64,000 nucleotides of DNA from Cellulomonas sp. KRMCY2 (GTDB lineage: Bacteria > Actinomycetota > Actinomycetes > Actinomycetales > Cellulomonadaceae), in NCBI RefSeq assembly GCF_000526515.1, contig NZ_JAGF01000001.1, positions 1,178,001 to 1,242,000 on the forward strand, given 5' to 3'. The position numbers and the translations under genes were made by a program. Shown here piece after piece: positions 2,225 to 23,878 of the stretch (positions are counted from its first letter, which is position 1; every line of letters begins with the position of its first letter). The notes beneath the pieces are model-generated. The model ran no database searches. It worked only from the letters and a program-made list of their open reading frames with translations, and was not told where the DNA came from.

Positions 2225-4633
2225 TCAGCCCATCCGGACCGAGATGACCGAGCCGTCGTGCAGCAGCTCGACGGGAGCGACGGTCCCCGCAACCGGGACG
2301 CCGTCGACCTCGAGCGACACGACCCCACGGCTCACGTGGTGCGGGTTCGTGACCGAGATCGTCACGCGCGAGCCCCGGAACAGCCGCTCGACGTCGAAGC
2401 CGTCCCACCCCGTCGGCAGGCACGGGTCCACCTCGAGGCCGGCCAGGACCGGCCGGACACCGAGGATGTACTGCGTCACGCCGATGTACGTCCAGCTCGC
2501 GGTCCCGGTCAGCCACGGGTTGCGGGACTGGCCGAACCGGGGCGACGTCGGGCCGTGCGTGAACTGGGCGTACACGTACGGCTCGACCTGGCGCACCTCG
2601 GCGGAGTCGTTGTACCGGGCCGGCAGGTAGGAGCGGTAGTACTCGTAGGCGCGGTCACCGCGGCCCAGCATCGCCTCGGCGACGATCGTCCAGGAGTTCG
2701 CGTGGCAGAAGATGCCGCCGTTCTCCTTGTGGCCGACCGGGAAGACGAGCAGGGACAGCCCGATGCCCTCCATCGGCTTGGTGTGCGGCGGGTGGCACAG
2801 GGCCACGCCGTGCTCGCTGGCCAGGTGGGTGTGCACCGAGTCCATCGCGGTGTGCGCGCGCTCGTCCGACGTCGCGCCCGAGATCACCGCCCAGACGTTG
2901 GGCTCGAGGTAGATCTGCCCCTCGTCCGCCTGGTGCGAGCCGAGGGCCGCCCCGGTGGCCGAGATGCCGCGGATGAACCACTCGCCGTCCCATGCGGCGT
3001 CGATCGCGGGCTCGAGCGCCTCGAGCTGCGCGGTCGCCCACCCGGCCGCGGCGTCCCGGCCCGACTCCCGGGCGAGCTCGCGGGTCACCCGCAGACCGTT
3101 GGCCAGCAGGAACGTCGAGAACATCGACTCGCCGGTCGTGCCGAACTGGATGCAGTCGTTCCAGTCGGCAGCCAGCCCCTGGACGAGCCCGTTGCGGCCC
3201 AGGTGCGTCAGGGAGAAGGTCATCGCCTGCACCAGGTGGTCGAAGACGGTGGCCTCGCCGTGGTCGGCGTACGGCAGGACCTGGTCCAGGTAGCCCAGGT
3301 CGCCGGTCTCGTGCACGAAGTTGGCGACCGTGATCGGCAGCCACAGCGCGTCGTCGGACCGGTACGTCTCGAGCGGCGGCGTCGCCTCGTGACCCGGCCG
3401 GTGGGTCAGCGGCTTGACCAGGGGCATCGCCCCGCCCTCGGCCGTCTGGCCGGTCAGGATCAGGTCGAGCCGCTCCTGGACGGCGTCCGGGATCGCGTGC
3501 GTGACGGCGAGCATGTCCTGGACCGTGTCGCGGTAGCCGAGACCGTCCCGGTCGCCGGCCTCGACGAGGCTCACACCGCGCGACCAGTTGAACGTCATGT
3601 GCGTCTGGTAGGCGTGCCAGACGTTGACCATCGAGTCGAGCTCGGGGTCCGGGGTGCGCACCTGGAGCGGTGCCAGGTGCGCGGCCCACTCGGCCCGGAT
3701 CGCCTCGAGCTCGGCGTCGACCCGCTCGGGTGTCGCGAAGTACGCCATCACGTCGCGGCCGGCCGGCATCGTGCCGTGCTCGTCGGACCACGGCGTGTTC
3801 GGTGCACCGATGCCGAGGCAGAAGATGACCTGCCTGGTCTGCCCCGGTGCCAGCTCGAGCCGGGTGTGCAGCGAGGCGCACGAGTTGTCCCCGACGGTCT
3901 GGCTGCCCGAGCACTCGCCGCGCTCGACAGCGATCGGGTTGGCCTGGGTGCGGTACCCGCCGAGGAAGGCGTCCCGGTCGGTGTCGAAGCTCGTGACCTC
4001 CGCGCCGGCGACGCCGAACCACAGCTCGGAGAACGCGTCCCTCGTCGAGTTCAGTCGGTGGATCATGCCGTCGGCGTAGCTTGCCCGCACCACGTACTGG
4101 CTGTACTGCAGGTTCTCGAGGTCCTGGCGGTAGTTCCACTCGTTGGCCAGCTCGGCGTAGGAGAAGACCGAGATGGTCCGCGCGGTCGGCCCCGGGTTGG
4201 TGACCTTCAGGGACCAGTACTCGAAGGCCTGGCCGGCCGGGATGAAGCAGGTCATCTCCGAGCGGATCCCGGCGTACTCGGCCTCGAAGACGGAGTAGCC
4301 CAGCCCGTGCCGGACGGTCGACGTGTACTGGTCGAGCGGCTTGCCGACCGGCTGCCAGGAGGCGGACCAGTAGTCGCCCGCCGGGACCGGGCCCGCGCCG
4401 TCGTCGTCGCGCAGGTACAGGAAGCGGCCGGGCTCGTCGACCGGGACGCCGTTGAACCGCATGCGCAGCACCCGTCCGGTGCCACCCGAACGGTAGAACG
4501 AGTAGCCACCGGCGTTCTGCGTGATGATCCCGCCGTACAGGCGCGAACCGAGGTAGTTGATCCACGACCGTGGCGTGTCCGGCCGCGTGATGACGTACTC
4601 GCGGGCGGCATCGTCGAAGTGGCCGAAGCGCAT
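2225..4633 (-). CDS. GH94 disaccharide phosphorylase (chitobiose/cellobionate-type branch)
   Basis: 802 residues, ATG at 4633, preceded by AGAGGA. The N-terminus MRFGHFDDAAREYVITRPDTP and the catalytic motif ADWNDCIQ (general acid Asp in ADWNDC) place it in GH94, inverting phosphorylases that split a beta-linked disaccharide with phosphate to a sugar 1-phosphate plus free sugar. It differs from the upstream cellobiose phosphorylase in length and in the stretch RDAFLGGYRTQANPIAVERG, which recalls the N,N'-diacetylchitobiose or cellobionate phosphorylases. [13 protein letters not shown] and WLTGTASWTY line up with the conserved sugar and phosphate sites. It is cytoplasmic with no signal peptide, and is second in the operon, 132 bp after cbp. 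Substrate is inferred, not certain. Confidence 0.85.
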   Translation of the reverse strand: MRFGHFDDAAREYVITRPDTPRSWINYLGSRLYGGIITQNAGGYSFYRSGGTGRVLRMRFNGVPVDEPGRFLYLRDDDGAGPVPAGDYWSASWQPVGKPLDQYTSTVRHGLGYSVFEAEYAGIRSEMTCFIPAGQAFEYWSLKVTNPGPTARTISVFSYAELANEWNYRQDLENLQYSQYVVRASYADGMIHRLNSTRDAFSELWFGVAGAEVTSFDTDRDAFLGGYRTQANPIAVERGECSGSQTVGDNSCASLHTRLELAPGQTRQVIFCLGIGAPNTPWSDEHGTMPAGRDVMAYFATPERVDAELEAIRAEWAAHLAPLQVRTPDPELDSMVNVWHAYQTHMTFNWSRGVSLVEAGDRDGLGYRDTVQDMLAVTHAIPDAVQERLDLILTGQTAEGGAMPLVKPLTHRPGHEATPPLETYRSDDALWLPITVANFVHETGDLGYLDQVLPYADHGEATVFDHLVQAMTFSLTHLGRNGLVQGLAADWNDCIQFGTTGESMFSTFLLANGLRVTRELARESGRDAAAGWATAQLEALEPAIDAAWDGEWFIRGISATGAALGSHQADEGQIYLEPNVWAVISGATSDERAHTAMDSVHTHLASEHGVALCHPPHTKPMEGIGLSLLVFPVGHKENGGIFCHANSWTIVAEAMLGRGDRAYEYYRSYLPARYNDSAEVRQVEPYVYAQFTHGPTSPRFGQSRNPWLTGTASWTYIGVTQYILGVRPVLAGLEVDPCLPTGWDGFDVERLFRGSRVTISVTNPHHVSRGVVSLEVDGVPVAGTVAPVELLHDGSVISVRMG

Positions 4634-21217: not shown

Positions 21218-22468
21218 ATGGAGTACCGCCCCCGGCTGGTCGACGCCGAGCTGACTCGCCTGCTCGCTGCGGTCGGCGCTGTCGTCATCGAGGGTCCGAG
21301 AGCCTGCGGCAAGACGGAGACCGCTCGTCGCGTCGCGGCGAGCGAGCTCCGCGTCGACACCGACGCGCGTGTCGCCCCGGCGATGGCCGTGGACCCCTCA
21401 CTGCTGCTCGACGGACGGCCCCCGCAGCTCCTTGACGAGTGGCAGGTCCAGCCGGAGCTGTGGAACCACGTACGACGGGCCGTGGACGACCGCCATCAGC
21501 CGGGCCAGTTCATCCTGACCGGCTCCGCCACTCCCGACGACGACGCACGACGGCACTCCGGGGCAGGCCGCTTTGCCCGGATCCGCATGCGTCCGATGTC
21601 GCTCTTCGAGACCGGGCACTCCACCGGTGCGCTCCGCCTCGGCGACCTGCTCGCCGGGAATCGGGTGGCGGCTTCGGGCCCGGACCTCGCTCTCGCAGAC
21701 ATCATCGAGCGGCTGCTCATCGGCGGCTGGCCGGGCCTGCAGGGTGCCGCGCCCGCAGAGGCCACCCGCGTTCTCCGGGACTACCTCACCACGATCCGCG
21801 AGGTCGACATCGATCGCGTCGTCAGAGGGCGGCGGGATCCGCGACGGGTGGGGCGCGTGATCGCCTCCCTGGCCCGGAACACCGCGACCGAGGCGTCCCT
21901 GGCCACACTGACCCGGGACAGCGGCCAGGACGGCGAGCCGCTCGCTCGCAACACGGTCGACGAGTACCTCGACGTGCTCCAGCGCCTCATGGTCGTCGAG
22001 GACCAGCCGGCCTGGTCGACGCACCTGCGCTCGTCGGCGACCCTGCGCAAGACCCCGAAGCGTCACTTCGTCGACCCGTCGCTGGCAGCCGCGGCGCTCG
22101 GCGCGACCTCAGAACGGCTGCTCGCCGACCTCAACAGCCTCGGCCTGCTCTTCGAGTCGCTCGTCGTGCGGGACCTGCGTGTCTACGCACAGGCCCACGG
22201 GGGCGAGGTCCTGCACTACCGCGACAGCACCGGCCTCGAGGTCGACGCCATCGTCTCGACCGACGACGGTCGCTGGGGGGCCGCCGAGGTCAAGCTCGGG
22301 GCGGGACAGATCGAGGATGCGGCCCGGAACCTTCTGCGGTTCCGAGATCGCATCGACACGAGCAGGTCCGGTACCCCGGCCTTCCTGGCTGTGATCACGC
22401 CCTCGGGTCTTGGCTACACCCGACCGGACGGTGTCAGCGTGGTCCCGCTCGGGGCCCTCGGTCCCTAG
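21218..22468 (+). CDS. AAA-type ATPase with DUF4143 C-terminal domain
   Basis: 416 residues from ATG 21218, which has GAGGAG 8 bases upstream; an ATG-free extension into the repeat array is open but would translate the repeats. N-terminal ATPase: VVIEGPRACGKTETARR is Walker A, LLLDGRPPQLLDEWQVQPELW is the Walker B region, FILTGSATP a sensor. DUF4143 follows with FESLVVRDLRVYAQAHGGEVLHYRDSTGLEVDAIVSTDDGRWGAAEVKLG, an endonuclease-like fold with E-x-K. The family is widespread, often tied to mobile or toxin-like contexts, and its role is unknown. The iteron-like array directly upstream suggests tight transcriptional control, perhaps by the protein itself. Confidence 0.88.
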   Translation: MEYRPRLVDAELTRLLAAVGAVVIEGPRACGKTETARRVAASELRVDTDARVAPAMAVDPSLLLDGRPPQLLDEWQVQPELWNHVRRAVDDRHQPGQFILTGSATPDDDARRHSGAGRFARIRMRPMSLFETGHSTGALRLGDLLAGNRVAASGPDLALADIIERLLIGGWPGLQGAAPAEATRVLRDYLTTIREVDIDRVVRGRRDPRRVGRVIASLARNTATEASLATLTRDSGQDGEPLARNTVDEYLDVLQRLMVVEDQPAWSTHLRSSATLRKTPKRHFVDPSLAAAALGATSERLLADLNSLGLLFESLVVRDLRVYAQAHGGEVLHYRDSTGLEVDAIVSTDDGRWGAAEVKLGAGQIEDAARNLLRFRDRIDTSRSGTPAFLAVITPSGLGYTRPDGVSVVPLGALGP

Positions 22469-22553
22469 GGCCAAGCGGACTGGTCCGCTCGCACCAGACG
22501 GCCGGCACCCCACGGTCCGCACAGACTGTGACGCAGGTCACACTCGTTGCTCC

Positions 22554-22581
22554 TCAAGGATGTCCGGTTTGTCGCCGATAG
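22554..22581 (+). promoter_or_regulatory. sigma28 (FliA/WhiG-type) promoter candidate
   Basis: TCAA at 22554-22557, a 16-base spacer, then GCCGATAG at 22574-22581. This closely matches the sigma28/WhiG consensus TAAA-N15-GCCGATAA. It points rightward to the riboswitch and the BldC-family gene, with a start site expected near 22588-22592. Confidence 0.65.
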
Positions 22582-22622
22582 GTCATTTGAGGTAGCGCCG
22601 AGATGATCGGGACGCACCTCAC

Positions 22623-22711
22623 GTCAGCGACAAGGGCAAACCCGCCGGAATGCGGGGACGCAAAGCCAGGGGCCCAGACGGGCCGCCCAGCTACCGAACG
22701 ATGGGATTGAC
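22623..22711 (+). ncRNA. cyclic di-GMP-I (GEMM-I) riboswitch
   Basis: The RNA has the conserved GEMM-I blocks in order: GACAAGGGCAAACC, a short hairpin, GGGGACGCAAAGCC, then a GC-rich second stem ending CAGCTACCGAACGATGG, which corresponds to the GGTTACCGATGG end of the Vibrio Vc2 aptamer. GTCA at 22623-22626 can pair with TGAC at 22708-22711 to close P1. The aptamer runs to two bases before the ATG of the BldC-family gene, so binding of c-di-GMP could directly control access to the start. I see no separate intrinsic terminator, which favours translational control. Confidence 0.88.
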
Positions 22712-22712
22712 C

Positions 22713-22913
22713 ATGCAGACCGCACCCTGGACGACGAGGTCCCTGTTGACTCCGGGCGAGGTGGCGACCCTGTTCCGGGTGGACCCCAAGACCGTGACCC
22801 GGTGGGCGAACAGCGGCAAGATCACCTCGGTGCGGACCTTGGGCGGGCACCGCCGGTACATCGAGTCCGAGGTCCGCGGCCTCCTGGGTGCGGTTCCCGC
22901 GCAGCCGCGCTGA
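22713..22913 (+). CDS. BldC-family MerR-like DNA-binding protein
   Basis: 66 residues from ATG 22713 (an ATG at 22701 lies inside the aptamer). The sequence LLTPGEVATLFRVDPKTVTRWANSGK with IRTLGGHRRY-like TLGGHRRYIESEVRGLL is nearly identical to BldC of Streptomyces, a small winged HTH that binds DNA direct repeats in a head-to-tail series. BldC paralogues are frequent in actinobacteria. This one is unusual for its context: a sigma28-type promoter and a c-di-GMP riboswitch in its leader, which tie it to motility or lifestyle switching. Confidence 0.92.
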   Translation: MQTAPWTTRSLLTPGEVATLFRVDPKTVTRWANSGKITSVRTLGGHRRYIESEVRGLLGAVPAQPR

Positions 22914-22993
22914 GCCCTTGGCTGAGGCACCGGAGCCGCGCTGGTGCATGTTCTGCCGGCGCGCTGATGCACCTTCTGCCGGCAGATCCGGGG

Positions 22994-23878
22994 TCAGGAG
23001 CCGAGATCGTCGGCGACCAGGTGGGCGTGCGCCTCGAAGACCTGGGCGGTGAACGGCACTGATGTCGTCGCGGCCGTGCCGGCCACCGGGTACCAGGGCC
23101 CGGCACCGTTGACCTGGTACTGACCCTGCCACGTGGTGACCAGCTGCACGGCGAACTCCCCGGCCTGCCGGTACGGGTAGCTCACGGTGTGGTTCGGGTA
23201 GGGCGCACCGGGGTCGGTCGTGACCAGCGGTTCCGACCCGTCACCGAAGTCCCACGCGAACGCCACCGGCGTCGCGCGGACCGCGACCGGGACGCCGAGG
23301 ACCGTGGTGGCCAGGGTCTGCGGGGCCGGGTCGGCGTACACGATCAGGTCCTTGTTGACCAGGCCGCGACCGTCGTCCGGCTGGTACTGCGGGGTCGAGG
23401 CGGTCAGCGGCAGACGCCGGAACTCCTCGACCGACAGGACGACCAGATCGGTCCCGTCCTGGCAGCCACCAGGATCGACCCGGCTCCACGGGCTGAGCCC
23501 GGCACCGGTGACCGGGTCGACCTCCCGGCGCTGCAGGGGCGCCAGCGGCACGCTGCCGTCCGCGCACACCTGTGCCACACCAAGGTCATCGATGCACTGG
23601 CGGTCGACAGCCAGCGGGTCCAGCTCACCACACCGGGGCAGCGGGACACGGCGGTACTCGTAGGTGATCGCCACACTGGCTTGGGTGGTTGTCCCGGGTT
23701 CCTCCGAGCCCGAGGTCTGCGAGTCGGTGACGACAACGCTCGACCCGTCAGCCCTCGAGGTGAGGCCTCCCGGCTCGTCGCCGTCCGTACTCGCCCACGC
23801 CATCGTGTTGGGTACCACGCAGGCGAAGGCGACGATGGCAGCGACCCGAACGCGGCGACCAGTGGTTCCCATGCTCAC
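22994..23878 (-). CDS. secreted protein with PKD-like domain
   Basis: About 294 residues, starting at GTG 23878 or the ATG two codons on. It has a signal peptide (RVRVAAIVAFACVVPNTMAWAS), a variable Ser/Thr-rich region and a C-terminal PKD-like domain (VAFAWDFGDGSEPLVTTDPGAPYPNHTVSYPYRQAGEFAVQLVTTWQG). Cys residues at about 82, 95 and 105 may form disulfides. The start overlaps the stop of the upstream lipoprotein gene by GTGA, so the two are translationally coupled. This pair of genes occurs together in many actinobacteria. Role unknown; probably cell-surface. Confidence 0.82.
   Translation of the reverse strand: MSMGTTGRRVRVAAIVAFACVVPNTMAWASTDGDEPGGLTSRADGSSVVVTDSQTSGSEEPGTTTQASVAITYEYRRVPLPRCGELDPLAVDRQCIDDLGVAQVCADGSVPLAPLQRREVDPVTGAGLSPWSRVDPGGCQDGTDLVVLSVEEFRRLPLTASTPQYQPDDGRGLVNKDLIVYADPAPQTLATTVLGVPVAVRATPVAFAWDFGDGSEPLVTTDPGAPYPNHTVSYPYRQAGEFAVQLVTTWQGQYQVNGAGPWYPVAGTAATTSVPFTAQVFEAHAHLVADDLGS

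Follow-up and report, generated by a model that had tools for sequence, protein, structure and literature searches.

Can one short leader join a flagellar-type promoter, an RNA sensor of a second messenger and the gene of a small DNA-binding regulator? This question is raised by a locus of Cellulomonas sp. KRMCY2, for which the original prediction described a sigma28-type promoter, a c-di-GMP-I riboswitch and a BldC-like gene in direct succession. BldC is a developmental regulator of Streptomyces. Here, we examined the locus within a stretch of 64 kb (the window), in the remainder of the genome and in related bacteria.

The leader carries a full-length c-di-GMP-I aptamer

The three ordered GEMM-I blocks from which the riboswitch had been proposed turned out to be parts of one full-length match to the c-di-GMP-I family (GEMM-I, RF01051) at 22625-22698 of the forward strand. 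The covariance check that had been asked for gave 54.6 bits (E 6.4e-8) against a gathering score of 35, and this was the sole RNA-family match above gathering score in the 64-kb window. The aptamer is real. G20, A47 and C92 (Vc2 numbering), which we take to be the ligand-contact residues, are all kept in it, and the RNA is predicted to bind c-di-GMP. Among the 58 aptamers found in the family (see below), G20 occurs in 54, A47 in 57 and C92 in all 58.

Two variant classes were considered for the window aptamer and rejected. The first is c-di-GMP-I-GGC (RF03167), where GGC presumably denotes a G at position 47; the window aptamer (L007) has its best score within the clan as RF01051 and carries A47. 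The second is the cGAMP type, for which we assume A20 to be the characteristic base change, and it is out since the window carries G20. The accessible text of PMC9481103 speaks of such a pocket change in cGAMP-type variants, with the base left unnamed. In other loci, an A at position 20 was seen in the aptamers L050 and L054, and RF03167 is the top-scoring family for L005 and L079, yet both read GACGCA in the position-47 region. The L079 stretch also holds a ZMP-ZTP riboswitch match (3053-3155, 45.3 bits).

The aptamer is followed by a BldC-family gene

Behind the aptamer lies a forward-strand gene (22713-22913) whose product of 66 residues, read from 22713-22910, matches the Pfam families HTH_17 and MerR. 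Comparison with PDB chains gave 88.7 bits for 6ama_A, with identity at 41 of 56 aligned positions (a hand count), and a match to 6amk as well. We take both structures to be Streptomyces BldC, 6ama being named in the PDB table only as a 'putative DNA-binding protein'. The product has the make-up of the BldC family, namely a MerR-like winged helix-turn-helix of about 70 amino acids without an effector domain, and the predicted 66-residue BldC-like gene is thereby borne out. Its position was misjudged in the original prediction, which put it two bases after the aptamer: an ATG does lie there, at 22701, but it gives 70 residues, and the 66-residue gene begins at 22713, 15 nt after the aptamer, in agreement with the MQ[ST]AP starts of its relatives. 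The next downstream reading frame taken as a gene is on the opposite strand.

The start codon is preceded at 6 nt by a weak Shine-Dalgarno-like (SD) GGGA (22703-22706, forward strand); in many relatives a stronger AGGAG is found at a similar position. In the 78 public stretches described below, the distance from CCGAA to the start is 14-22 nt for 70 of the 77 called genes. The protein may act as a DNA-packing regulator, as was originally supposed.

The arrangement recurs within one bacterial family

The genome of the strain, a single contig of 4.495 Mb, contains nine RF01051 matches above gathering score and five BldC-like genes. Four of the nine aptamers (L004, L005, L007, which is that of the window, and L009) stand directly 5' of BldC-family genes. 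The others precede a small secreted-looking protein (L002), a large protein resembling DUF4214 by eye (L006) and short reading frames (L001 and L003). The remaining aptamer, L008 (at 3710820), has a C at position 47, is preceded by a sigma28-like box with the spacing of fliC, and lies before a protein which ends, judged by position, in a GGDEF domain; feedback on c-di-GMP synthesis is possible at this locus. The genome has 31 GGDEF matches.

A search of 61 genomes of the family, with filters that could miss weak matches, gave 58 RF01051 matches in 19 genomes, and in 22 of the 58 cases a BldC gene directly follows. In a public pattern scan of named genomes we found 78 stretches with an aptamer and a BldC gene, some of them from one genome, and 68 of these are labelled Cellulomonas or Actinotalea. 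Thus, the proposed placement of the aptamer before a BldC paralogue holds well beyond the window. The scope of the original account was narrower: the eight other aptamers and the coexisting plain BldC are absent from it.

In wider searches, 155 of 396 phylum genomes and 26 of 248 order genomes had RF01051 matches, our genome being counted in both sets. No BldC gene followed the aptamer in any of the 13 readable phylum loci, out of 30 for which the longest reading frame per locus was taken (16 proved unplaceable, and the placement of L164 was wrong). Among 15 loci from the order, with one or two longest frames each, BldC was found only at L189, which belongs to the same family. Since this is the only case among the readable loci, the link between aptamer and BldC looks lineage-specific in this partial sample.

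A small reading frame of 46-66 amino acids follows a number of aptamers (L003, L016-L019, L021, L023, L024, L029, L037, L040, L042, L044, L046, L047, L051 and L052), many of these frames having a P[AST]Q-like tail.

The promoter box resembles flagellar promoters

The sequence TCAA-N16-GCCGATAG is present as described, with the -35-like TCAA at 22554-22557, 16 bases, and the -10-like GCCGATAG at 22574-22581, all on the forward strand; transcription is predicted to start near 22588. The pattern TCAA-N15..17-GCCGATA has four occurrences in the genome and none in the reversed-pattern control. As about 1.2 would be expected by base composition (a hand estimate), the box alone is no more than mildly surprising. 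A looser form, TCA-N15..17-[GC][CT]CGAT, stands at most 160 nt upstream of five of the nine aptamers of this genome, against a mean of 0.06 in shuffled sequences, which is well beyond chance. Boxes with exact fliC spacing (N16) precede L002, L006 and L008 (shuffled mean 0.01).

We compared the box with 21 flagellin upstream regions, our own genome included. TCA-N16-[GC]CCGAT is found in 10 of them, 94-102 nt 5' of the flagellin domain; of the other eleven, two carry similar forms and nine gave no match to the pattern. A similar motif is thus found at flagellar genes, where the original prediction had proposed to look for it, with the difference that their spacer is N16 and that of the window, counted after TCA, is N17. 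The -10 part of the window, GCCGATAG, is of the GCCGAT type expected for sigma28. For flagellar and WhiG promoters, the part of PMC8325347 available to us gives TAAA as the -35 and GCCGATAA as the -10 element. Two FliA/WhiG-family sigma factors are encoded in the genome, one at 4281244 (266 bits, over the curated cut-off) and one at 1363473, adjoining flagellin (152 bits, under the cut-off), and there are two flagellin-domain matches. The sigma28 claim thus stands as to the class of the -10 element, which is kept in six of seven leaders of the same class (see below), and as to the presence of suitable sigma factors, and fails as to the spacer, which is one base longer. It seems plausible, from these sequence comparisons, that the box is of the sigma28 type.

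This promoter type is not general to the wiring of riboswitch and bldC, since a sigma28-like box is missing by pattern in 93 of 100 such leaders (some loci being counted twice and a few having a short upstream part). Within the family sample, flagellin occurs in 15 of the 19 genomes with aptamers versus 12 of the 42 others, which is an association and no rule, and the genomes G001, G026 and G041 have an aptamer with BldC and no flagellin match. A link of the window leader to motility may be supposed.

An alternative is that another sigma factor, aided by the CRP-type site described below and by a TGTCC element, reads this promoter, so that motility plays no part. The spacer exceeding that of flagellin promoters by one base and the aptamer genomes devoid of flagellin are in its favour, as is a TTG-spacer-ATAG pair near the aptamer in 50 of the 100 leaders, often accompanied by the TGTCC element. 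It is countered by the conservation of CCGATR in six of seven related leaders, by the fliC-spaced boxes at three other aptamers of this genome, and by our finding no sigma70-like site in 22460-23000. We regard this explanation as possible, though rather doubtful.

A CRP-type palindrome defines a separate class of leaders

The promoter box, aptamer and gene of the original prediction are all in place, and a further element was overlooked. TGTGA-N6-TCACA is the CRP consensus, and it occurs exactly at 22527-22542 (forward strand), a putative site at which the cAMP receptor protein may bind. Leaders composed like that of the window (CRP-type palindrome, sigma28-like box, aptamer, gene) are referred to as class B. 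They make up seven of the 136 leaders examined (L005, L007, L061, L077, L079, L102 and L146); L106 and L053 are similar and were left out of the count as they do not have the exact boxes. In all seven the palindrome lies exactly 27 nt 5' of the -35-like element, which is TCAA, or TAAA in L102; the -10 element contains CCGATR in six and reads TCGATG in L005. The exact palindrome was found upstream of two of the nine aptamers of our genome (shuffled mean 0.00) and five of the 58 of the family (0.02), two of the latter five, L026 and L042, being outside class B.

We also compared the class-B loci with 36 reading frames of the window (12-34 kb, high third-position GC) at E 1e-8. Only two frames matched and both overlap the BldC gene itself. 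Since the neighbouring frames have no match, the leader and gene form a conserved unit.

The commoner class looks different. In the 100 riboswitch-bldC leaders (78 named and 22 from the family sample, some loci twice), an ATAG -10-like element stands just 5' of the aptamer in 56, with TTG at a fitting distance in 50. The spacer of the window promoter contains the element TGTCCGGTTT (22561-22570, forward strand), also present in many promoters of this commoner class. TGTCC[AG][GA][AT] was found upstream of 21 of the 58 family aptamers (shuffled mean 1.67) and upstream of four of 61 plain bldC genes. As a TGTCC[AG]G-like element is seen in the spacers of both classes, at a similar distance from the -10 element by eye, this suggests that their promoters may be of common ancestry.

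In the 160 nt upstream of the family aptamers, CGGGTGAA or its complement occurs in 27 of 58 cases (shuffled mean 0.55), e.g., L001, L003 and L009, and it is found in eight of 61 plain bldC upstream regions, which were longer stretches. It is a putative binding site.

The class includes a close twin of the window locus in the same genome, L005 (at 1537444), whose leader is 84% identical over 186 nt and whose BldC-like product has lost the stretch RTLGGHRR. The window locus could then be a drifting duplicate of the same kind, in which the switch is no longer relevant, and the weak SD of its gene would fit. We find this improbable, given that the BldC core of the window protein is intact and that the leaders and proteins of the class are conserved in Actinotalea.

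The riboswitch sits on an additional BldC copy

All 61 genomes of the family sample encode BldC. A riboswitch-linked copy was found in 18 of them and only plain copies in the other 43; in this count, four loci with no core match (L304, L306, L307 and L308) were dropped and L299, situated at a contig end, was taken as plain. Since 17 of the 18 genomes also keep an aptamer-free copy (in G050 only the riboswitch-linked one was found), it is an extra paralogue that carries the switch. Most simply, the plain gene would be the ordinary BldC, with the riboswitch placed on additional copies. In a poorly resolved BldC tree (54 columns, 33 of 69 inner branches left open, root placed on the long L005 branch), Streptomyces BldC is grouped with the plain copies. 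The riboswitch-linked copies do not form one clade (fewest changes, 6) and neither do those of class B (3).

The P1 helix ends at the ribosome-binding region

The P1 helix of the window is drawn between CGUC (22622-22625) and GAUG (22700-22703), both on the forward strand, with its 3' strand abutting the ribosome-binding region. In an alignment of 32 leaders (A1, columns 10-13 with 95-98), 77.3% of the cells of these four pairs were paired, against 66.6 (sd 2.3) in shuffled alignments. Covariation was 0.346 versus 0.173 after shuffling, and none of 500 shuffles was as high; the best slid version reached 0.198. Covariation in the 32 leaders thus marks P1 as the closing helix, which in the window has just four pairs. 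The measure of pairs changed on both sides was no better than in shuffles (195 of 500), and RNAalifold, used unaided, did not predict P1.

Drawn at its longest, P1 has a 3' strand which ends 3-10 nt after CCGAA (4-7 nt in 71 of 86 distinct BldC leaders), that is, where the SD begins. The mean unpaired value of the SD over these 86 leaders was 0.29 when P1 was imposed and 0.49 when its 5' strand was blocked; accessibility was lower with P1 in 67 leaders and not lower in 19. For the window leader the difference was small (0.20 with P1, 0.28 without it), and the aptamer is missing from its minimum-energy fold when no constraint is applied. When whole strands were compared with cognate and non-cognate partners, the means of -13.7 and -13.4 kcal/mol indicated no clear advantage.

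No intrinsic-terminator-like site was found in 22460-23000. Termination was thus rejected as the expression platform, and this result is in keeping with translational control. It is known from structural work that c-di-GMP stabilises P1. Since P1 covaries and its 3' strand lies at or overlaps the ribosome-binding site, translational repression by c-di-GMP is favoured, the folding evidence for the window itself being weak.

The opposite direction was also considered. Without ligand, a hairpin of AUGG (22701-22704) with CCAU (22711-22714) would mask the start, and c-di-GMP would free it. In the unconstrained fold of the window, a hairpin of this kind does take up both the SD and the start region, but its letters are, by eye, not common to the six other aligned class-B leaders, whereas a P1 reaching the ribosome-binding region is common to leaders. 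We therefore consider an ON switch unlikely.

A model for the leader

Our preferred reading, which we hold with slightly better than even confidence, is a leader of an extra BldC gene with a sigma28-type promoter and a CRP-type site, an aptamer and a translational OFF switch. The aptamer, the gene, their geometry, the conserved promoter elements and the coexisting plain BldC are observed; ligand binding, the sigma factor, CRP binding, the direction of the switch and the function of the protein are what we infer. In this model, the extra regulator gene of the BldC family would be transcribed, leader included, from a FliA/WhiG-like (sigma28-type) promoter with the CRP-type site 27 nt 5' of its -35-like element. 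The leader RNA would fold into a c-di-GMP-I aptamer, with P1 reaching to the ribosome-binding site. At high c-di-GMP, the ligand would keep P1 shut and hinder ribosome binding, so that little of the paralogue is made; at low c-di-GMP and with an active sigma28-type factor, it would be produced. Having the BldC DNA-binding core, the paralogue probably joins plain BldC, competes with it or modifies its binding.

Comparison with known systems

The known control of actinobacterial development by c-di-GMP is exerted via proteins, namely BldD and RsiG, and to our knowledge the bacteria carrying the wiring described here are not known for sporulation. Repetition of the same wiring on spare BldC copies in relatives suggests that c-di-GMP may control a BldC-type regulator directly through RNA. 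What appears new is a recurrent BldC-family target for a known riboswitch class and, in Actinotalea, a composite of a CRP-type site with a sigma28-like promoter. Tentatively, and with considerable doubt, one may picture a duplication of bldC in Cellulomonas and Actinotalea after which the second gene came under riboswitch control; c-di-GMP would then adjust the composition of cooperative BldC complexes on DNA. In Actinotalea, yet another copy would have gained a site for the cAMP receptor and a promoter of the flagellar type. If this were true, one short Actinotalea leader would respond to three inputs, namely cAMP, c-di-GMP and a sigma factor of motility. The arrangement would offer a natural case in which c-di-GMP sets how much is made of one of the two BldC proteins sharing a cell, and the role of BldC outside Streptomyces would become testable.

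The window leader shares with known c-di-GMP-I riboswitches the full aptamer, P2, P3 and the ligand-contact residues, and differs from them in its target, a BldC-family regulator. We found no description of a c-di-GMP riboswitch on BldC in the titles and abstract beginnings covered, a set to which most subscription journals do not belong. Streptomyces BldC, in the available parts of PMC5859096 and PMC6428758, is likewise a small MerR-like DNA-binding protein without an effector domain; unlike the window protein, it groups with the plain copies in our poorly resolved tree. In the sigma/anti-sigma system, as far as the accessible text describes it, c-di-GMP is likewise tied in actinobacteria to a promoter class with -35 TAAA and -10 GCCGATAA, but there it acts on the anti-sigma protein, while here it is proposed to act on RNA after the start of transcription. 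Similarly, in the accessible part of PMC4151990, c-di-GMP controls the developmental regulator BldD by acting on the protein, whereas at the present locus it would act on the RNA.
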